DNA of 64,000 nucleotides from Allobacillus saliphilus (GTDB lineage Bacteria > Bacillota > Bacilli > Bacillales > Alkalibacillaceae), in the NCBI RefSeq assembly GCF_018138385.1, contig NZ_JAGSIE010000024.1:1-64000 (forward strand), in the 5' to 3' direction. Below, piece by piece: positions 8,874 through 18,378 of the stretch. Made by a program: the position numbers and the translations under genes. The notes beneath the pieces are model-generated. The model saw only the letters and a list, made by a program, of their open reading frames with translations. It ran no database searches and was not told the DNA's origin. Position 1 is the stretch's first letter. Every line of letters begins with the position of its first letter.

Positions 8874-10160
8874 TTAATAAATAGATGTGTTTTTCTCAGA
8901 CATATTTTCTAAAATTTCTTTCACACGAGCTAAGAACTGACCACAAATCAAGCCATCAAGTACACGGTGATCTAATGATAGACAGAGGTTTACCATGTCA
9001 CGTGCTCCGAACATTCCATTTTCCATGAAAACAGGTTTCTTCACAATGGATTCTACTTGAAGGATCGCTGCTTGTGGGTGATTAATGATACCCATTGATT
9101 GAACTGAACCGAATGAGCCTGTGTTATTTACGGTAAATGTTCCACCAGACATATCTGCGCTCGTTAACTTGCCAGATTTAGCTTTATTCGCAAGCTCTAC
9201 AATCTCTTTAGCAATTCCCTTAATGCTCTTGTCGTCAGCATTTTTGATCACTGGCACAAATAAACGGTCTTCATGTGCTACGGCAATCGATAAATTGATG
9301 TCCTTTTTCTGGATAATCTTATCTCCCGCCCAAGAGCTGTTCAATTGTGGGTATTCTTTCAATGCTTGAGCGACTGCTTTTACGAAAAATGCAAAATAAG
9401 TTAATGAGAAGCCTTCATTTTGTTTGAACTCTACTTTTTTCGCATCTCTAAATGCAACAAGGTCTGTTACATCCACTTCGACTGTCATCCAAGCGTGAGG
9501 AATTTCAGTTTTAGACGTAACCATATTTTGTGCAATTGCTTTTCTAACACCCGTGACAGGAATCTCGATATCTCCATCTTGCGTTGGCACAGAAGGTGAT
9601 TGAGATTGCGACTGCGTTTTAGCAGACATCGATTTCGTTTCATCTGCTACTTGTTGTGCAGGTGTTTCCTCTTGTGCAGATGGCTTTGGTATGTCACCAG
9701 AAGCAATAATTTTCTCAATATCCTTCCGTGTAATTCGTCCACCTTTTCCTGAACCATCTACTTGGTTCAGATCAATATCATTTTCTTGAGCCATGCGCAT
9801 CACTGCTGGTGAATAACGTTTTTTCATTGATTGATCTTTGTTTTCTTCTTCGGTTGTTTCACTTTTTTCTTGTGTTGAGGTTTCTTTATTTTCTTCTGTT
9901 GATGAATCTTCACCTGCTGATTCGGTTTCCATATAACAAATGAGCTCACCGACTTCGATTGTTTCTCCTTCTTTAGCAACAATCTCTTTGATGGTACCTG
10001 TAAAAGAAGAAGGTACTTCCGCATTTACTTTATCTGTTTCGACTTCTGCAATTGGATCATATTTATTAACGTGATCCCCAGCTTTCACAAGCCAAGAACT
10101 GATTGTGCCTTCTGTTACACTTTCCCCTAACTGAGGCATCGTAACTTTTTCTACCGCCAT
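8874..10160 (-). CDS. bkdB: Branched-chain 2-oxo acid dehydrogenase E2 (dihydrolipoyl transacylase)
   Basis: Core of the BKD complex, transferring branched acyl groups from lipoamide to CoA. In the 428-residue protein a lipoyl domain lies at residues 1-80 with the lipoylated Lys in VETDKVNAEV (Lys44). An acidic Glu/Thr linker follows, then a peripheral-subunit-binding domain at about 112-150 (SPAVMRMAQENDIDLNQV), a second flexible linker rich in Ser, Gln and Thr, and the catalytic domain from about 195. That domain has SLDHRVLDG (HxxxDG catalytic His and Asp) near residue 398. It is the last gene of the operon, after E1-alpha and E1-beta. Confidence 0.95.
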   Translation of the reverse strand: MAVEKVTMPQLGESVTEGTISSWLVKAGDHVNKYDPIAEVETDKVNAEVPSSFTGTIKEIVAKEGETIEVGELICYMETESAGEDSSTEENKETSTQEKSETTEEENKDQSMKKRYSPAVMRMAQENDIDLNQVDGSGKGGRITRKDIEKIIASGDIPKPSAQEETPAQQVADETKSMSAKTQSQSQSPSVPTQDGDIEIPVTGVRKAIAQNMVTSKTEIPHAWMTVEVDVTDLVAFRDAKKVEFKQNEGFSLTYFAFFVKAVAQALKEYPQLNSSWAGDKIIQKKDINLSIAVAHEDRLFVPVIKNADDKSIKGIAKEIVELANKAKSGKLTSADMSGGTFTVNNTGSFGSVQSMGIINHPQAAILQVESIVKKPVFMENGMFGARDMVNLCLSLDHRVLDGLICGQFLARVKEILENMSEKNTSIY

Positions 10161-10178
10161 GATTTTTACCTCCTTCGT

Positions 10179-11162
10179 TTAAAATTCAGCTAATTCACGC
10201 ATTGCTTTTTCAACTTTATCTGGATTGATCATAAAGAATTTTTCCATCGTTGGTGCATAAGGCATGGATGGTACATCTGGTCCTGCCAAACGCTGTATTG
10301 GTGCATCTAGATCAAATAGACAGTTTTCAGCGATAATCGCTGCGACTTCACCGATGATACTACCTTCTTTGTTATCTTCTGTTACGAGTAAAACTTTTCC
10401 TGTCTTCTTAGCCGCTTCAATAATCGCTTCTTGGTCAAGTGGATAAACTGTTCGAAGATCTAGAATATGTGCTGATATTCCTTCTTCCGCCAATTTTTCA
10501 GCGGCTTGTAAAGCAAAGTGTACACTTAAGCCATATGTGATCACGGTGATGTCTTCACCTTCGCGTTTTACATCAGCCTTTCCAATTGGCAATGTATAAT
10601 CATCTTCAGGTACTTCCCCTTTGATTAATCGATAAGCACGTTTATGTTCAAAGAATAGTACTGGATCTTCATCACGAATAGCTGCTTTCAACAATCCTTT
10701 AACATCATAAGGAGTCGATGGCATAACAATCTTTAAACCCGGTTGGTTAGCAAAAACAGCCTCAACAGATTGAGAATGATATAGAGCCCCGTGGACACCG
10801 CCACCATAAGGTGCACGAATGGTGATCGGTGCATTCCAATCATTGTTCGAACGATAACGAATTCGAGAAGCTTCGGAAATAATTTGGTTAACAGCCGGCA
10901 TAATAAAATCAGCAAACTGCATCTCAGCAACTGGGCGCATGCCGTACATGGCCGCACCAATCCCTACACCAGCGATTGCCGATTCGGCTAACGGTGTGTC
11001 AATGACACGAGCTTCGCCAAACTGATCATATAGACCTTCAGTCGCTTTAAAAACACCGCCCTTTTTACCAACATCTTCCCCTAAAACAAATACTTTCTCG
11101 TCACGTTCCATTTCTTCTTTCATTGCGAGCGTAACTGCTTGAATATAAGACATTACAGCCAT
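10179..11162 (-). CDS. bkdAB: Branched-chain 2-oxo acid dehydrogenase E1 beta
   Basis: Beta chain of the thiamine-diphosphate-dependent E1 that decarboxylates branched-chain 2-oxo acids. The 327-residue protein shows LGEDVGKKGGVFKATEGL, DTPLAESAIAGVGIGAAMYG and the C-terminal transketolase domain TVYPLDQEAI, all typical. I chose the ATG at 11162 (MAVMSYIQ), which has AAGGAGGGG upstream. An upstream ATG would overlap E1-alpha by 28 bases. One base separates it from the E1-alpha stop, so translation is coupled. It encodes no regulatory domain. Confidence 0.95.
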   Translation of the reverse strand: MAVMSYIQAVTLAMKEEMERDEKVFVLGEDVGKKGGVFKATEGLYDQFGEARVIDTPLAESAIAGVGIGAAMYGMRPVAEMQFADFIMPAVNQIISEASRIRYRSNNDWNAPITIRAPYGGGVHGALYHSQSVEAVFANQPGLKIVMPSTPYDVKGLLKAAIRDEDPVLFFEHKRAYRLIKGEVPEDDYTLPIGKADVKREGEDITVITYGLSVHFALQAAEKLAEEGISAHILDLRTVYPLDQEAIIEAAKKTGKVLLVTEDNKEGSIIGEVAAIIAENCLFDLDAPIQRLAGPDVPSMPYAPTMEKFFMINPDKVEKAMRELAEF

Positions 11163-11163
11163 C

Positions 11164-12174
11164 TTATTCCCCTCCTTCTTCAGCATATACATATTTCAAT
11201 GCATGCTCAGGCTCTGCATATGGTGCATTTTCAGCTTCGTCTGTTGCTTTATTCACTTCATCATCTAATTCTTTCATTAGCTTTTCTTCTGCTTCTTCTG
11301 TAAGAACGCCTACTTCTTTCAAATATCTACCAAACGCTAGTATGTTATCATTTTTCTTCATTTCTTCAATCTCTTCCGCATCACGATAAGCTTTATCGTT
11401 ATCATCGCTTGAGTGTGCGGTCATCCGGTCGGTCATCGCTTCGATCAAAGTCGGACCTTCTCCGTTCGTTGCGCGCTCATGTGCTTCTTTAACGACCTTA
11501 TAAACTTCCAGAGGGTCGTTACCGTTCACTTGATGTCCCGGCATTCCATAAGAGCTTCCTCGAATGGCTACAGACTCACTGGCAACTTGTTTTTCCAACG
11601 GTACCGAAATGGCATATTTATTGTTCTCAACCATTGTAATGACTGGCAATTTATGCACTCCTGCAAAGTTTAGGCCTTCATGGAAATCACCTTGGTTGGA
11701 AGAACCCTCTCCTAATGTAACAAAAGATACTGCTGGGTTCTTATCCATCCGTGCAGCTAGGGCTACCCCTACAGCATGCGGCAACTGAGTTGTAACAGGT
11801 GAAGATCCCGTTAAAATACGATTCTTTTTCTGCCCAAAGTGTCCTGGCATTTGACGGCCGCCTGAGTTTGGATCATCCGCTTTTGCGAATGCATGTAAAA
11901 ACAATTCTTTTGTTGTCATGCCGAACGCAAGCACAACTCCTACATCACGATAATATGGAGCGACATAATCTACATCTCTGTTCAGCGCGAATGATGCCCC
12001 AACTTGTGCCGCTTCTTGTCCTTGACAAGAAATAACAAATGGGATTTTCCCAGCACGATTGAGTAACCACATTCTCTCGTCAACTTTTCTTGCAAGCAAC
12101 ATGGTACGATACATTTCAATGACTTGTTCGTCACTCAACCCTAACTCTTTATGACGATTCTTCTTTTGAGCCAT
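11164..12174 (-). CDS. bkdAA: Branched-chain 2-oxo acid dehydrogenase E1 alpha
   Basis: Alpha chain of E1, holding the thiamine-diphosphate Mg2+ site. In the 336 residues the motif GEGSSNQGDFHEGLNFAGVHKLPVI sits in two parts near residues 150-175 and forms the GDG-type cofactor-binding signature (GEG here). EAMTDRMTAHSSDDN near 245 is the family's phosphorylation-loop region. SCQGQEAAQVG near residue 49 is also typical. It follows lpdV by 18 bases in one transcription unit. Confidence 0.94.
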   Translation of the reverse strand: MAQKKNRHKELGLSDEQVIEMYRTMLLARKVDERMWLLNRAGKIPFVISCQGQEAAQVGASFALNRDVDYVAPYYRDVGVVLAFGMTTKELFLHAFAKADDPNSGGRQMPGHFGQKKNRILTGSSPVTTQLPHAVGVALAARMDKNPAVSFVTLGEGSSNQGDFHEGLNFAGVHKLPVITMVENNKYAISVPLEKQVASESVAIRGSSYGMPGHQVNGNDPLEVYKVVKEAHERATNGEGPTLIEAMTDRMTAHSSDDNDKAYRDAEEIEEMKKNDNILAFGRYLKEVGVLTEEAEEKLMKELDDEVNKATDEAENAPYAEPEHALKYVYAEEGGE

Positions 12175-12192
12175 ACTATTTGCCTCCTTTAA

Positions 12193-13614
12193 TTATCCAT
12201 GAATTTGTTTTCCATCTACAGCTAAAGCTGCTTCACCTATTACTTCTGATAGTGTCGGATGAGGATGAATAGTCTCCCCGATTTCCCATGGTGTAGCATC
12301 AAGAACCATTGCAAGGCCTGCTTCGGAAATCATATCTGTCACGTGCGGGCCAATCATATGAACACCGAGTAAATCTTGATTTTCTTTATTTGATATCATT
12401 TTGACAAAACCGTCTGATTCCCCGTGAACTAATGCTTTTCCGACTGCTTTAAACGGAAACTTACCTACTTGCACATCATAGCCTTTCTCTTTTGCCTGCT
12501 TTTCTGTTAAGCCGACACTGGCAATCTCTGGGTTGGAATATACACAAGAAGCGACATGTTCATAGCGAATTGCTTCAGGTTCTTCATTTGTGATATGTTC
12601 CACGGCTAAAATTCCTTCGTGAGATGCGACGTGAGCCAATTGCATTCCACCGATCACATCACCGATTGCGTAGATATGACTTTCTTTTGTTTGGTTGAAC
12701 TGGTTGACTTTAATAGCTCCCCGGTCAATTTCAATATCTGTATTGTTCAAGCCGATATTGTCCACGTTCGGTTTTCTGCCAACAGATACTAAGAGGCGAT
12801 CCGCTTCAAACGTTTTCGTTTCATCATTGATTTTCGCTTGAATAGTTACGCCATTATCTACTTCCGCTGAATCACCAAGAACTTCTGCATCTGTGAAAAA
12901 TTCGATCCCTTTCTTTTTCAATTGCTTTAAAGCTTCTTTCGAGATCTCTTCGTCTTCTGTTGGTAAAATTGTAGAAGCATATTCAAGTACTGTTACTTTC
13001 ACTCCAAAGTCCGCAAGCATTGATGCCCATTCAATACCGATGACACCTCCGCCAACAATAATGATTGATTCAGGTAATTCATCCATTTCCAAGGCTTCCT
13101 CTGAAGTCATGATTGTTTGTCCATCAATTTCAAGTCCTGGAAGTGTGTTTGGAGAAGAACCTGTTGCGATAATGACATTCTTCGGTACGAGCATTTCATT
13201 CTCATCGCCGTTATTCATTTCAACTGAGATTGTTCCAGCTGTCGGTGAGAAAATACTTGGACCAAGGATTCTGCCATGTCCTACATAAACATCGATTTTT
13301 CCTTTTTTCATCAGTCCTTGAACACCTTTATGTAGTTGTTCAATGATGGATTCCTTCCGTTCCTGAACACGCGCAAAATTTACTGTTGGAGAGCCTGCTT
13401 CAACGCCAAATTCAGCGGCATTCTTTGTTTGCTTAAATATTTCTGCACTTCGCAGTAACGCTTTTGAAGGAATACATCCTCGGTGAAGACAAGTGCCACC
13501 TAGTTCTGTTTTTTCGACAATTGCTGTTTTTAATCCTAGTTGGCTAGCACGGATAGCAGCTACGTAACCACCAGTACCCCCGCCTAATATAACCAAATCA
13601 TACTCTGTAGCCAT
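12193..13614 (-). CDS. lpdV: Dihydrolipoyl dehydrogenase E3 of the BKD complex
   Basis: FAD flavoprotein that reoxidises the lipoamide of BkdB with NAD+. The 473 residues contain the N-terminal FAD Rossmann motif GGGTGGYVAA near residue 11, the redox disulfide GGTCLHRGCIPSK near residue 40 and the NAD motif GGGVIGIEWASM near 182. ATGSSP, AIGDV and the C-terminal HPHPTLSE follow, with the catalytic His-Glu pair near residue 450. I used ATG 13614 because GGGGAG lies seven bases upstream. It directly follows leucine dehydrogenase, whereas in B. subtilis buk lies between these genes. Confidence 0.95.
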   Translation of the reverse strand: MATEYDLVILGGGTGGYVAAIRASQLGLKTAIVEKTELGGTCLHRGCIPSKALLRSAEIFKQTKNAAEFGVEAGSPTVNFARVQERKESIIEQLHKGVQGLMKKGKIDVYVGHGRILGPSIFSPTAGTISVEMNNGDENEMLVPKNVIIATGSSPNTLPGLEIDGQTIMTSEEALEMDELPESIIIVGGGVIGIEWASMLADFGVKVTVLEYASTILPTEDEEISKEALKQLKKKGIEFFTDAEVLGDSAEVDNGVTIQAKINDETKTFEADRLLVSVGRKPNVDNIGLNNTDIEIDRGAIKVNQFNQTKESHIYAIGDVIGGMQLAHVASHEGILAVEHITNEEPEAIRYEHVASCVYSNPEIASVGLTEKQAKEKGYDVQVGKFPFKAVGKALVHGESDGFVKMISNKENQDLLGVHMIGPHVTDMISEAGLAMVLDATPWEIGETIHPHPTLSEVIGEAALAVDGKQIHG

Positions 13615-13701
13615 CAGTTTCTCCCCTTTCTTCATTAAACCAATTTCGGCCTGCCAAATACATGAGTGAAGAGGAAACCAAATAAGTTCCCTCTTTCATG
13701 T

Positions 13702-14799
13702 TTATTTTAATCTAGACAATGGATTCATTTCATTCGTTAAGAAAGTACTTCTAGAACGCTGAACACTAGCAATTCTTTCTTCAGCCATATGATCCGCTGC
13801 AGCTTGTGTCGGTATATTTTTCTCTTTGGATATTTCAAAGATCTTCTCCAAGCTTAAACCAATGTTTTCAACTTGTTTATAAGCACGTTCTTTATTGTAT
13901 CCATTCAATTCATCCGCAACATTTATGACGCCACCGGAATTAATGACAAAATCAGGGGCGAAAATGATACCTTTTTCATGGAGGATTTCACCATGTCGCT
14001 CTTCCTTCAATTGATTGTTTGCAGATCCTGCGATGACTTTCGCTTTTAACTTACCAATTGTTTCATCATTAATTGTTGCACCAAGAGCACACGGAGCAAA
14101 AATATCACAATCCACATCGTAAATTTCCTCAGTACCTACAGCTTTGGCACCAAAGTCTTCTACTGCACGATTGACAGCTTCTTCATTAATATCTGTGACA
14201 ATTAGATTTGCGCCTTCCTCATGCAAATATTTACACATCGTATACGCAACACTTCCAACACCTTGAACGGCAATGGTTTTTCCATTGAGTGAATCAGAAC
14301 CAAACGCTGCTTTCGCAGATGCTTTAATACCCAAATAGACACCATAAGCTGTTGCTGGTGATGGATTTCCAGCCGATCCGTGCTCTGGAGATTTACCGGT
14401 TACATAGTCTGTTTCCATATAAATAATGTCCATATCATCAGTGTTTGTGCCTACATCAACTGAAGTAATGTAACGACCTGCTAGTCCTTGAATATAACGA
14501 CCGAATGCACGGAATAATTCAGGGCTTTTATCTTTTTTCGGATCACCGATAATAACTGTTTTACCGCCACCTAAATTTAAGCCGGCAGCTGCGTTTTTAT
14601 AGGTCATTCCTCTTGCTAAGCGTAATGCATCTACTAATGCTTCTTCTTCAGATTCATATGTCCACATACGAGTACCGCCTAATGCTGGTCCTAATGTAGT
14701 ATCGTGAATCGCAATGATTCCTTTCAAGCCTGAGTTTTTATCCTGGCAAAATACCACCTGTTCGTAATCATATTCCTCTAAGTATTTAAAAAGTTCCAT
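13702..14799 (-). CDS. bcd: Leucine dehydrogenase
   Basis: NAD-dependent oxidative deaminase of leucine, valine and isoleucine, giving the 2-oxo acids used by BKD. The 365-residue protein has the catalytic Lys region [21 protein letters not shown] near 75-95 (split: [11 protein letters not shown] then NLGGGKTVI). The NAD-binding motif is [15 protein letters not shown] near residue 183. Length matches the family (364-367). The start is ATG 14799 behind GGAGGAATTAC. It is the first structural gene after bkdR, with a 62-base gap that shows no -24/-12 sigma-54 promoter. Confidence 0.95.
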
Positions 14800-14861
14800 A
14801 GTAATTCCTCCAATAATGTTTTTTTTATATTGAAAAACTTTCCATGAACCTAAGGATTGGG

Positions 14862-16928
14862 TCAACCATCCTCGGCTGAATTTAGCTGCTTTCCGATATT
14901 ATATTTATCCATTTTGTAATACAGATTCCGAATAGATATGTTTAACTGTTTTGCGGTTTTCGATTTGATGTAATCATTTGCTTCCAAGATTTCCAAAATG
15001 AATTGTTTCTCGAAATCATCCATCGCTTCTTGCAAAGTCGCATATTCTTCATCTCGTTGATCATGAAGTAAATCCAACTGATCAAACGTGTGTTTACGAA
15101 GTCTAGGGATGTGCTGCTCTTGGATTACACGTTCATGTGGGTGCATCTTAATGATTGCCTGCGCAATAATGTTTTCCAATTCCCTAACATTTCCCGGAAA
15201 GCTGTACTTCTGAAGTTTGTCTAAAGCTTCTTCAGAAATATCATTAATATGCCGACCATAACTTTCATTTAAATAATTCATTAAATGTTTCGTTAAAGGT
15301 TTTAAATCATCCATTCTCTCTCGTAATGGAGGTAAATGAATCGGCAGTCGATTTAAACGGTAAAACAGCGATTCTTTAAAAGATCCGTTAATGATCGCAC
15401 GTTCCAAGTTCACACTTGTTGCAGCTATGATTCGAACATCGACGGGTATACGTTCGTGTCCTCCAAATCGAACAACTTCTTGATCTTCGAGAACTTTTAA
15501 TAATTTACCTTGCATTGAAAGTGACATTTCACCTATATCATCGAGAAATACACTTCCGTTTCTGGCCTCTTCGAATAATCCCTTTTGTCTTTCTGGAGGA
15601 CCTAATTCATCACCGAAAAGTTCTTTCTGCAGCGTTTCATCATCCACCGTGCCGCAATTTACACGAATGAATTTATCAAACTTACGACGACTTTCATTGT
15701 GAATTGCATGAGCTAGCAATTCTTTTCCTGTGCCTGGTTCCCCTCTAAGCAGGATGGAAGTAGGCATTTTCGCACCGATTTTCGCTTGTTCAAGCGTTAA
15801 ACGCATATCCTCTGAGTTGGCAATGATGTCATCAAACGTGTACTTTGCTTCAAGGTTACGAATAATTCGTTTCGCTTTTTTTAATTCTGCACTAAGGGAT
15901 TCAATTTCTGACAAATCATGAATGACTCCTATGCTACCTTTTAATGCTCCATCGACGATGATCGGTGCTACATTGACAAGTACATCCTTGTTGAAAGGAC
16001 CAACTTTCATCTTTCGCCCTCTCACAGGCTTTCTCGTTCGTAACACCTCATAGTGAACACTATCACCTTCAGATATATCGATGGTGGCTGGCTTCCCGAT
16101 GATCTCCTTCTCATCAAGACCGGTTATCTTAGTATAAGCAGGATTAATCATTAAACCAACACCATTCTCATCGACTACAGAGATTGCTTCCTCACTAGAT
16201 TGGATAATTGCTTCAAGCATCGTTTGTACTTCTTTTAAATCAGTAACTTCCTCAGCAAGCCCCACGACTTCCGTTATGTCTTTAAAAACTGCGAAAGCAC
16301 CAATCAATTCGCCTGAGTCATCGATCATTGGAATTCTTGTCGTAATCACTTTCTTACCATTCTCAAGAGTTAATTGTTTATTAATTTCTTTCGTTCTCGT
16401 TTGGAGAATGTTTGGTAATGCTGAATCAGGAATAATTTCCCGAATGTTCTTTCCAAGCATCTCTGTTTCCTGCAGACTTAAAATATTTGCCGCAGACTGA
16501 TTAACAAATGTGATTTGCTCATCTGTATCGACAACAATCATCCCATCGTGAATAGAAGATAGTAGGATTTCCCGCATATTCACTTCATTTTCGATTTGAT
16601 TCATTAATCCTTCTTTTTCATACAATAGATCCGCAATGACATGTGCCACTGTTCCAGGAATTAATACGCAATTTGGGGGTTTCATTTGCCTTAATTCTTG
16701 AAAAACAGTCGCTTCACCAGTCGTTTCCACGATAATATCGACAGTGTCGTCAATTGCTTCATTGTAAGATAAGTATGTTGCAATACCATGCTCTCTTGCT
16801 TTAATCATACCAGGCGCATCTGGATCAATGTCTGCAACTTTTTGCACAGATAACAAATCAATATCTGAAAACAGATGTAAAATTGCAGTTCCGCCTTTTC
16901 CTGCTCCTACGATTAACACATTTTGCAT
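14862..16928 (-). CDS. bkdR: BkdR-like PAS/AAA+ transcriptional activator lacking the GAFTGA loop
   Basis: Regulator of the downstream bkd operon. The 688 residues contain an N-terminal Rossmann-like domain ([14 protein letters not shown]), two PAS domains (about 118-220 and 238-340), an AAA+ domain from about 365 and a C-terminal Fis-type helix-turn-helix ([21 protein letters not shown]). Walker A is GEPGTGK at 396-402. Walker B is VFLDDIGE near 460, and the arginine-finger region [14 protein letters not shown] is present. The GAFTGA loop that contacts sigma-54 is missing: the sequence runs [16 protein letters not shown], so about six residues are absent. The start is ATG 16928 with AAAGGTG upstream. 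It may work with sigma-A, as TyrR does. Confidence 0.9.
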
Positions 16929-16967
16929 CTTATTCACCTTTAACACTGCAATTTTTTGCATAGTTCT

Positions 16968-16997
16968 ATCATATATGAAAACGCTTTAATTTTTCAA
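16968..16997 (-). promoter_or_regulatory. Sigma-A promoter of bkdR with overlapping cre-like site
   Basis: TTGAAA (16997-16992) and TATGAT (16973-16968) are 18 bases apart on the leftward strand. A near-consensus CcpA operator, TGAAAACGCTTTAA (16976-16989), fills the spacer, so glucose repression of bkdR, and perhaps of the whole bkd operon, is likely. It is predicted from sequence only. Confidence 0.6.
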
Positions 16998-17067
16998 GTG
17001 TTTTCTCTGTGTTTTCGATATTTATTTGATATAATCATGAGGGGATATAGAGAAAAGAGGGTATGCA

Positions 17068-17331
17068 ATGATTCGTTTAATTGCTTTAATTATTTTATTG
17101 ATTCCCGGTATTTTAGCGGCTTACGGCATTAAATTACTTCGCGATTCTTTTTTTGGAGAAGTCGCTCCTCTATTTATTAATGTCATGATTCAATTTACAG
17201 CAGGTATACTGTTCATTATTATTGGTATTGGTTTTATTGGAGGGTTTATCTACCGGAGAGATCAGAAGAAAAATAAAACGAAAGACTCTAGGAATGATTG
17301 TGTGTTAGTCGACAATAAAAATAATGATTAA
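17068..17331 (+). CDS. yqzF: DUF2627 family membrane protein (YqzF)
   Basis: An 87-residue protein with two hydrophobic segments, at about 3-22 and 38-62, and a basic hydrophilic tail. Features such as PGILAAYGIKLLRDSFFGE and an IGFIGGFIYRRD end match the DUF2627/YqzF family of Bacillaceae, whose function is unknown. It is divergent from bkdR, as in B. subtilis, and starts 139 bases from the bkdR start codon. The tail after residue 68 is more variable and Lys/Asn-rich. Confidence 0.8.
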   Translation: MIRLIALIILLIPGILAAYGIKLLRDSFFGEVAPLFINVMIQFTAGILFIIIGIGFIGGFIYRRDQKKNKTKDSRNDCVLVDNKNND

Positions 17332-17394
17332 AAAGTAATGAAGAAAAAAATTAAATTTATTGGTTCATAATTTTCAATCTCTAATGAATGCAAA

Positions 17395-17427
17395 AACTGA
17401 GCAGTCGTTGACTGCTCAGCTTTTTTA
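17395..17427. terminator. Bidirectional terminator between yqzF and the ureohydrolase gene
   Basis: Perfect 10-bp stem CTGAGCAGTC (17397-17406) with GACTGCTCAG (17410-17419). It is T-rich on both sides, with TTTTTTATTT to the right. Confidence 0.85.
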
Positions 17428-18378
17428 TTTATTTTCTTTTTCGTGCAAAATATTTCCCGCTAATGCGTACAGGATAATTGTTGATGCCAAATGTGAAGAA
17501 AAATCATTCGGATCTTGGATTGGATAAATCTCGACCAAATCCATGCCAATGATTCCCTTTTTAGCGAAAGCATGTACTAATTCAACTAACTCAAAAGAAG
17601 TTAGACCATTTCCATCAACTGGCCCGCCCGGATTGAAAGCGAAATCTAACACATCACTACAAATGGATAAATAAACAGCTTCAGTACCTTCGCTTGCAAT
17701 TTGATATGCCTTATCTGCCATTGCTTGAATATCATTTGCATAACGAATTTCCCTCGACGTAATGGTTGTAGCACCTGCTTCAGCAGCAAACTTCCCTGTT
17801 TCTGGTTTATTTCTTGGTCCATGAATGCCCATATGGACGATACTTTCACTACGAACATTCTCATCTTCATACAAACGTTTGAATGGTGTTGACCGAGCAT
17901 ACATTTCACCTTGATAATCATTCATATTGTCATAATGCGCATCTAAGTGAATGATTCCCACTTTACCATCGATTTTTTTACCCAATGCACTGACGATCGG
18001 AAAAGTGATTCCATGATCTCCGCCAAATGCTACCGGAAACTTACCGGTGTCCCATACTTTGCCGGCAAAATTTTCGATTCGATTCATTGTGTCAGGAACG
18101 TCATGCGGAACGATATCAACATCACCTAAATCGCCTAGTTGATAATGAGCTAGTACATCAATCCCATCCAATTCAGGTAAATAACCGCTGTAACGAGCGG
18201 AATTTAAACGAATGGATTTTGGACCGAGCTCTGCTCCTGTATAGTCTCCCCAAGTCACAGCGCCCTCCCATGGCACTCCATAGATCAATACGTCTCGATC
18301 ATTTACTTGGTCGGTTCCAATCTGAACTTTTTTACCCCCTAAAAAACATGGGGTGTTACCGTAAATTTTATCTGTCAT
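17425..18378 (-). CDS. Atypical ureohydrolase (arginase/agmatinase/formiminoglutamase family)
   Basis: A 317-residue protein of the arginase fold, which normally hydrolyses guanidino or formimino groups with two Mn2+ ions. Metal motifs FGGDHGITFP (His122) and IHLDAHYDN (Asp146, His148, Asp150) are intact. The third motif, normally SxDxDxxDP, reads SICSDVLDFAF. Cys240 therefore replaces the bridging Asp, Asp242 is kept and the Pro is Phe. The substrate is uncertain; neither agmatine nor formiminoglutamate is supported by neighbours. I used ATG 18378, which is preceded by GAGG; the upstream extension overlaps the symporter terminator. It follows a sodium/solute symporter, which may import its substrate (inference). 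Confidence 0.8.
   Translation of the reverse strand: MTDKIYGNTPCFLGGKKVQIGTDQVNDRDVLIYGVPWEGAVTWGDYTGAELGPKSIRLNSARYSGYLPELDGIDVLAHYQLGDLGDVDIVPHDVPDTMNRIENFAGKVWDTGKFPVAFGGDHGITFPIVSALGKKIDGKVGIIHLDAHYDNMNDYQGEMYARSTPFKRLYEDENVRSESIVHMGIHGPRNKPETGKFAAEAGATTITSREIRYANDIQAMADKAYQIASEGTEAVYLSICSDVLDFAFNPGGPVDGNGLTSFELVELVHAFAKKGIIGMDLVEIYPIQDPNDFSSHLASTIILYALAGNILHEKENK

Follow-up and report, generated by a model that had tools for sequence, protein, structure and literature searches.

The window, a stretch of 64,000 nucleotides of the Allobacillus saliphilus genome, contains bkdR on the minus strand at 14862-16928, placed from the open reading frame (ORF) list, Pfam matches and motif coordinates. 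The longest ORF runs from 14862 to 16961 (minus strand), and its ATG at 16961 overlaps both a putative operator and the expected transcription start. Translation more likely begins at the ATG at 16926-16928, which lies behind AAAGGTG. According to Pfam, BkdR is composed of an N-terminal Rossmann-like segment, two successive PAS domains, an AAA+ domain (Sigma54_activat) and a Fis-type helix-turn-helix (HTH), in that order. The N-terminal segment (16600-16926), of nucleotide-binding type and with a weak CoA_binding match (E 0.0046), is common to the BkdR proteins examined and could possibly be a metabolite sensor. Downstream, bcd (13702-14799, minus strand; leucine/valine dehydrogenase type) is the first structural gene after bkdR and is itself followed by ORFs for an lpdV-type dihydrolipoyl dehydrogenase and for bkdAA, bkdAB and bkdB-type genes (8874-13635, minus strand); the names of these genes, bcd included, are presumptive and given by similarity. 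The usual next gene, ptb, does not stand between bkdR and bcd in Allobacillus, and the same holds for Tenuibacillus and some Oceanobacillus.

The protein is orthologous to the BkdR regulators of Bacillales by its domain order, by its best-match identities (mostly 48-66% with other BkdR in the order, rising to 91% inside the genus and 96% in Allobacillus salarius, the closest named relative) and by the position of its gene, since bkdR of an orthologous locus directly precedes ptb or bcd of the bkd operon, here bcd. It is also the sole strong Sigma54_activat match in the A. saliphilus genome. An AF2 model (mean pLDDT 70.3, pTM 0.41) is usable mainly in the AAA+ part, and a fold search with this model retrieved known bacterial enhancer-binding proteins (bEBPs), FleQ (6jdi, TMt 0.83) and VpsR (7v2b, TMt 0.56). 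These structures have an AAA+ fold like that of BkdR here, while their sensors and targets differ. FleQ is longer than BkdR at the L1 loop in the alignment; it keeps the motif there and also represses sigma-70 promoters.

The L1 loop is where this BkdR departs from its sigma-54-dependent orthologues. Between ELFG and GLFEE, translation and alignment give 10 residues (15582-15611, minus strand) in place of the GAF(S/T)GA loop, as against 15 in the GAF(S/T)GA-bearing BkdR proteins, a net change of five residues. That the GAFTGA loop is missing had been claimed in a sequence-only reading of this DNA, and the claim holds; the orthologue alignment that it proposed as a check shows the short loop to be clade-wide, and the search for a GAFTGA orthologue in a close strain yielded none within the clade. 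The same kind of short loop is present in A. salarius, A. halotolerans, four Alkalibacillus, Piscibacillus halophilus, Filobacillus, Aquisalibacillus, Tenuibacillus and relatives, and in all 13 intact sequences of the Allobacillus/Alkalibacillus/Piscibacillus clade. A GAFSGA BkdR is found in eight genomes of the family, each from a genus outside the clade and each with rpoN. An AAA+ bEBP domain with a deletion in L1, as found here, is also what characterizes the loop-less bEBP relatives of sigma-70 type. Two other loci have loops altered by substitution without change of length, DAFPFA (L115, genome G202, rpoN not found) and GAYPGV (L029, genome G052, rpoN present); neither has a -24/-12 promoter, and both are possible early stages.

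Loss of the loop is accompanied by loss of the promoter that it would serve. BkdR loci were collected from named genomes (80), relatives, genomes of the order without sigma-54 and further members of the order, giving 127 rows (including one identical pair), and the -24/-12 pattern TGGYAN6YTGC was sought just after bkdR. Across these order-wide loci, loop and promoter are jointly present in 90 and jointly absent in 37, without exception, while the pattern occurred by chance in 5 of 5050 mononucleotide-shuffled regions. Several rows were left out because of broken frames (L045, L204, L206), as near-copies (L048, L050, L051, L079, L089, L091) or because a named row already represented their genome (L006, L007, L009-L012, L014-L017, L019, L022, L023, L026, L028, L032); L024 and L030 are also outside the 127. 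Each of the rows left out fits the pattern. Parsimony counts seven loop changes on a tree of 101 rows (at least five on starred branches) and five on a tree of all 127 (at least three); long branches meet in both trees, and the estimates range from three to seven changes. In an independent-pairs test, promoter and loop changed together in 5/5 pairs with 101 rows (p 0.0625) and in 3/3 with 127 rows (p 0.25), too few pairs for significance; for rpoN and loop, three of five pairs agree and two do not differ, and with 127 rows 0-2 of three agree. The differing loop shapes, including those with substitutions only, suggest that the loop may have been lost in several independent events. In the tree, BkdR from a genome recorded as Roseburia sp. 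1XD42-34 (L090) clusters with Virgibacillus, and this record is probably misnamed.

Sigma-54 itself was not found in most of the genomes with a loop-less BkdR. The rpoN/sigL check that the sequence-only reading had called for gave no match to either the DNA-binding or the core-binding domain of sigma-54 in the A. saliphilus genome (98% complete; Pfam, with positive controls detected). In the family of 22 genomes, nine carry sigma-54 above cut-off by either domain; the 13 without it, from Allobacillus, Alkalibacillus, Piscibacillus, Filobacillus, Tenuibacillus and one further genus, all have the short loop. Among the 14 clade genomes, neither domain exceeds the cut-off in 13, the exception being Aquisalibacillus, which combines a short-loop BkdR with rpoN. 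A sub-cut-off PF04552 match in Piscibacillus salipiscarius (G014) was considered as an rpoN remnant and rejected, because it is a LacI-type HTH. For the order as a whole, rpoN status was entered for 95 of the 127 rows: 59 have both loop and rpoN, 29 have neither (13 of them called absent by elimination, since the listing leaves out 31 genomes lacking a match and theirs are among the exactly 31 that do not appear in it, and one, L119 of G311, scored as absent with a sub-cut-off match of E 4.7e-4), seven have rpoN without the loop, and the reverse combination does not occur. L117 and L118 (G174 and G224) were kept out of this table; loop and promoter are present and rpoN was not found, in genomes that are 80% and 62% complete.

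The seven genomes with rpoN and a loop-less BkdR (Salimicrobium halophilum, S. flavidum, Oceanobacillus sojae, Aquisalibacillus, G052, G050 and G059) show that uncoupling from sigma-54 need not follow the loss of rpoN, and loop loss as a mere result of rpoN loss was therefore rejected as a general rule. In five of them (Aquisalibacillus, the two Salimicrobium, O. sojae and G052), loop loss is specific to BkdR, because the eight other bEBPs inspected there retain the motif, as GAF(T/S)GA in seven and GSFTGA in one. In Aquisalibacillus (region L141 239-7949), some 5 kb separate rpoN from another bEBP that carries GAFSGA (L155), and presumptive proline-racemase-like genes are nearby, an arrangement that resembles a self-contained set; this rpoN may have been regained. 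The rpoN neighbourhoods of G006, G012, G016 and G026 have only rpoN in common with that of G008, and synteny speaks neither for nor against a regain.

The remainder of the AAA+ domain is altered in a selective manner. Motif alignment on the minus strand gives an intact Walker A (GEPGTGKE, 15720-15743), a Walker B (FLDDIGE, 15528-15548) in which the catalytic Glu has become Asp, and an arginine-finger segment (FKESLFYRL, 15354-15380) in which the first Arg is replaced by Lys and the second kept; the arginine-finger positions are taken from PspF. The recognition part of the Fis-type HTH lies at 14913-14942 (minus strand). All four elements had been described as intact from the sequence alone. 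This is correct for Walker A and the HTH, but not for Walker B, which is FLDD here while the second acidic residue is Glu in each of the 90 BkdR with GAF(S/T)GA, nor for the arginine-finger region, where all 90 have Arg in place of the Lys. Three residues are invariant in the 127 aligned BkdR, the Walker A Lys, the Walker B Asp and the HTH Arg. Among the 37 loop-less proteins, in contrast, the catalytic Glu is changed in eight, the first arginine finger in 22 and the second in 18, so that at least one of these three is replaced in 25/37 loop-less but 0/90 loop-bearing BkdR; 12 of the 37 retain all three. Given that the changes from Glu to Asp and from Arg to Lys are conservative, residual ATPase activity is possible in A. 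saliphilus BkdR. Lowered ATPase activity is reported for PspF E108D, E108Q and E108A (PMC4132715), E108 being taken, by its place in the motif, as the counterpart of the Walker B position changed here.

Selection on the gene points to a working protein. Over the whole of bkdR, dN/dS is 0.013-0.106 in seven loop-less pairs, compared to 0.019-0.066 in seven loop-bearing pairs (one further loop-less and two loop-bearing pairs gave no finite estimate), and within Allobacillus it is 0.034 and 0.065. In the AAA+ part, the finite estimates are 0.006-0.108 for loop-less and 0-0.026 for loop-bearing pairs, thus somewhat higher without the loop, yet still low. The gene, which looked otherwise healthy from the sequence alone, is under purifying selection. 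Selection maintains BkdR, with conserved ATP binding and apparently dispensable hydrolysis.

The layout of the operon differs along the same line. Between the bkdR stop and the start of the gene that follows it (ptb or bcd, starts estimated by alignment) lie 74-387 bp in loci with the loop (median 115, n=90) versus -31 to 137 bp in loop-less ones (median 7, n=37), and 35 of the 37 loop-less gaps fall below the loop-bearing minimum. Operon fusion does not extend to every loop-less locus, because Tenuibacillus (135 bp) and Oceanobacillus sojae (137 bp), both loop-less, have retained a long gap, and O. sojae has kept the downstream box described below rather than the upstream one. In A. saliphilus, the bkdR-bcd gap (14800-14861, minus strand) contains no -24/-12 site, no box, no terminator and no promoter match, in agreement with the earlier statement that a -24/-12 promoter is lacking before bcd, and read-through from bkdR into bcd is expected. 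Upstream of bkdR, in contrast, a sigma-A-type promoter can be read at 16968-16997 on the minus strand, with TTGAAA (16997-16992) and TATGAT (16973-16968) separated by 18 bp. This is the top-scoring minus-strand promoter match in 13600-17450, a region whose nine sigma-70-type matches are not above chance in number (mean 12.6 in shuffles). Reading by eye, we find a similar promoter in 14 clade rows (TATGAT, TATCAT or TAAGAT), mostly with 17-bp spacing.

A 14-bp dyad, TGCAA-N4-TTGCA (16947-16960), follows the -10 element at a distance of 7 nt and so coincides with the expected start of transcription; we call this putative BkdR operator O1. A second exact copy, putative O2, lies inside bkdR (16833-16846), 114 bp from O1. 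The genome has six exact copies, of which O1 is the only intergenic one, one is inside bkdR and four are in unrelated ORFs. With at most one mismatch, the dyad occurs upstream of bkdR in 76/90 loop-bearing and 32/37 loop-less loci (53/2540 dinucleotide shuffles), the best upstream box in the other five loop-less loci having two mismatches; L205 lacks its N-terminal part and its upstream box is not meaningful. Downstream of bkdR, beside the sigma-54 promoter, the dyad is present at the same stringency in 86/90 loop-bearing but only 4/37 loop-less loci. From its position and conservation, we infer that the dyad is a putative BkdR box with an enhancer copy and an autoregulatory copy, and that mainly the autoregulatory copy would survive loop loss. 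O2 is exact in eight of the 37 loop-less rows, all of this clade, and in one of the 90 loop-bearing rows; it lies within the bkdR reading frame, and the encoded peptide VQxVAD could account for it. In Piscibacillus (G009, C42), two exact boxes at 157228 and 157464 are 236 bp apart, with the second copy upstream of bkdR, not inside it. A wider BkdR regulon is not claimed, because the box is no more frequent than expected by chance in 21 genomes of the family (2-8 copies per genome versus 1-11 for a reversed control). We found no published BkdR binding site in the literature searched, mostly outside subscription papers. The promoter spacer also holds a weak CcpA cre-like sequence, ATTAAAGCGTTTTCA (16976-16990, minus strand), called with the general cre consensus; such a site with at most one mismatch is present in 11/13 clade rows, yet also in 11/90 loop-bearing rows.

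What a sigma-54-dependent bEBP would have is thus missing in several respects: (i), GAF(S/T)GA in L1; (ii), sigma-54 in the genome; (iii), a -24/-12 promoter at the target operon; (iv), the Walker B DE and both arginine fingers. It is near certain that BkdR here is a former sigma-54 activator that has become sigma-54-independent. The sequences directly record the loss of the loop, of the -24/-12 promoter that it served and of the adjoining box, in a genome in which no rpoN was found. The sequence-only reading had suggested that BkdR may be a rewired activator or repressor and that such proteins can work with the housekeeping sigma factor, an interpretation supported by the missing sigma-54 match, the clade-wide loop loss and the purifying selection. 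We hypothesize, with a probability of roughly 0.7, that bkdR and the bkd genes have become a single sigma-A operon and that an ancestral autorepression has become operon control. Most likely, the BkdR proteins of this clade would thus be ordinary repressors of their own operon in salt-loving Bacillus relatives. A repressor is favoured over an activator because the sole intergenic box sits at the expected sigma-A start.

In the ancestor, BkdR would have activated the bkd operon through sigma-54 and repressed its own gene at the upstream box; this autorepression site looks ancestral, as most sigma-54-dependent relatives also have it upstream of bkdR. Once the sigma-54 promoter was deleted, this would have placed the bkd operon under bkdR's own sigma-A promoter, so that autorepression would now control the operon, leaving the loop and the hydrolysis machinery free to decay. 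The bkd genes are probably read from that promoter, given that there is no recognisable promoter or terminator between bkdR and bcd. BkdR would occupy O1 across the start site, perhaps aided by O2 114 bp away inside the gene, and block RNA polymerase until a signal reporting on branched-chain amino acid supply occupies its PAS/Rossmann sensor part. ATP would probably be a structural ligand, hydrolysed poorly if at all, because Walker A is conserved and the catalytic residues are altered. The order of the losses, the repression, its release by a ligand and the read-through are inferred. Whether this is a stereotyped route from sigma-54 activator to sigma-A repressor is, in our estimate, an even bet: the target promoter would be deleted, the regulator fused to the operon and the ancestral autorepression site turned to operon control, followed by decay of the loop and then of ATP hydrolysis, ATP binding being kept as a ligand function. 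BkdR would have taken this route several times, partly with rpoN still present, so that it would clear the way for rpoN loss rather than result from it.

As the main rival to a repressor, BkdR might activate with sigma-A in the manner of TyrR or of Rhodobacter NtrC, binding its box and recruiting or stimulating the housekeeping polymerase at the bkdR promoter or a bcd promoter. Loop-less bEBPs acting at sigma-70 promoters are known (PMC10274813, PMC3162934), and purifying selection on the AAA+ domain and the HTH would suit such a role. We nevertheless consider it unlikely: the only intergenic exact box begins 7 nt after the -10 element, a position that suits blocking rather than recruiting polymerase, the bkdR-bcd gap is devoid of a promoter match, and the box that was lost is the one beside the former target promoter. 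Alternatively, BkdR might control itself alone, the bkd genes being constitutive or under CcpA/CodY from an unrecognised promoter. The cre-like sequence in the promoter spacer across the clade and the 60-63 bp gaps of Allobacillus, which could conceal a weak promoter, speak for this, but no sigma-70-type match is seen in the gap here and most loop-less gaps (median 7 bp) are too short to hold a separate promoter outside coding sequence, making it improbable.

That BkdR is a decaying, functionless remnant appears more doubtful still. Several loop-less lineages have long branches, catalytic residues are changed, AAA+ dN/dS is somewhat higher in loop-less pairs, and the Piscibacillus salipiscarius draft has disrupted bkdR reading frames. 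Set against this, whole-gene dN/dS is low in the seven loop-less pairs (0.013-0.106), all 37 loop-less proteins retain the HTH Arg and the Walker A Lys, and the P. salipiscarius genome is 82% complete, so that its breaks may be sequencing errors. Finally, the A. saliphilus assembly is an 80-contig draft (98% complete), and a sequencing or assembly error or an overlooked sigma-54 could in principle mimic the pattern. The chance of this is negligible: error as the cause of the short loop was rejected because every clade member examined has it, and an overlooked sigma-54 was rejected using two domains, both below cut-off in 13 of the 14 clade genomes when positive controls were detected.

The preferred reading, a repressor derived from a sigma-54 activator, can be set beside known systems. 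In B. subtilis and B. thuringiensis, BkdR is the sigma-54 activator of the bkd operon. The B. thuringiensis protein is a tested sigma-54 activator that drives the TTGGCACGGTATTTGCT promoter of isoleucine/valine degradation genes (PMC4428206). Allobacillus BkdR shares the domains and the type of gene neighbourhood with the B. subtilis and B. thuringiensis proteins, but differs from them in having no GAF(S/T)GA, no -24/-12 promoter and no sigma-54, altered catalytic residues and a bkdR gene close to the operon. Loop loss as such is not new: TyrR, DhaR and HupR are sigma-70-dependent bEBP relatives with a changed GAFTGA, VpsR and YplP are probable cases, and Francke and co-workers suggested that the EBPs of two species lacking sigma-54 depend on sigma-70 (PMC3162934). 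With BkdR here, these five proteins share an L1 deletion or change, and their sigma-70 dependence is shown (TyrR, DhaR, HupR) or proposed; unlike theirs, as far as those sources describe them, loop loss in BkdR is tracked by target-promoter loss and a shorter gap across many genomes. The accessible part of that article names BkdR solely in its B. subtilis form, whose motif carries Ser (PMC3162934). NtrC of Rhodobacter capsulatus and of Caulobacter is likewise loop-less and acts at sigma-70 promoters, in R. capsulatus with ATP binding rather than hydrolysis (PMC10274813, PMC3162934), and Caulobacter NtrC also represses some genes (PMC10274813). These are loop-less bEBPs like BkdR, but they are response regulators, and rpoN loss with operon fusion, as in the BkdR clade, is not described for them in the accessible text (PMC10274813). 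The accessible part of a 2025 survey of sigma-54 regulons does not mention BkdR (PMC12316311).

In the literature searched, again mostly without subscription papers, there was no report of BkdR without the loop, nor of a promoter lost in step with it; loop-less bEBPs are already known (TyrR, NtrC, VpsR), while a loop-less BkdR with coupled promoter loss is new as far as we have seen. Among the related genomes, the loop, the promoter, the intergenic distance, the catalytic residues and rpoN differ in state from one genome to another, and the predicted mechanism is simple, autorepression becoming operon repression. To our knowledge, how bacteria lose an alternative sigma factor with its attached activators and operons is poorly documented. 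For BkdR of rpoN-less Bacilli, the annotation "sigma-54-dependent regulator" is likely wrong as to function. Further degenerate bEBP-like proteins without GAFTGA are present in the sigma-54-less genomes G092, G098 and G123 (L173, L174 and L175).
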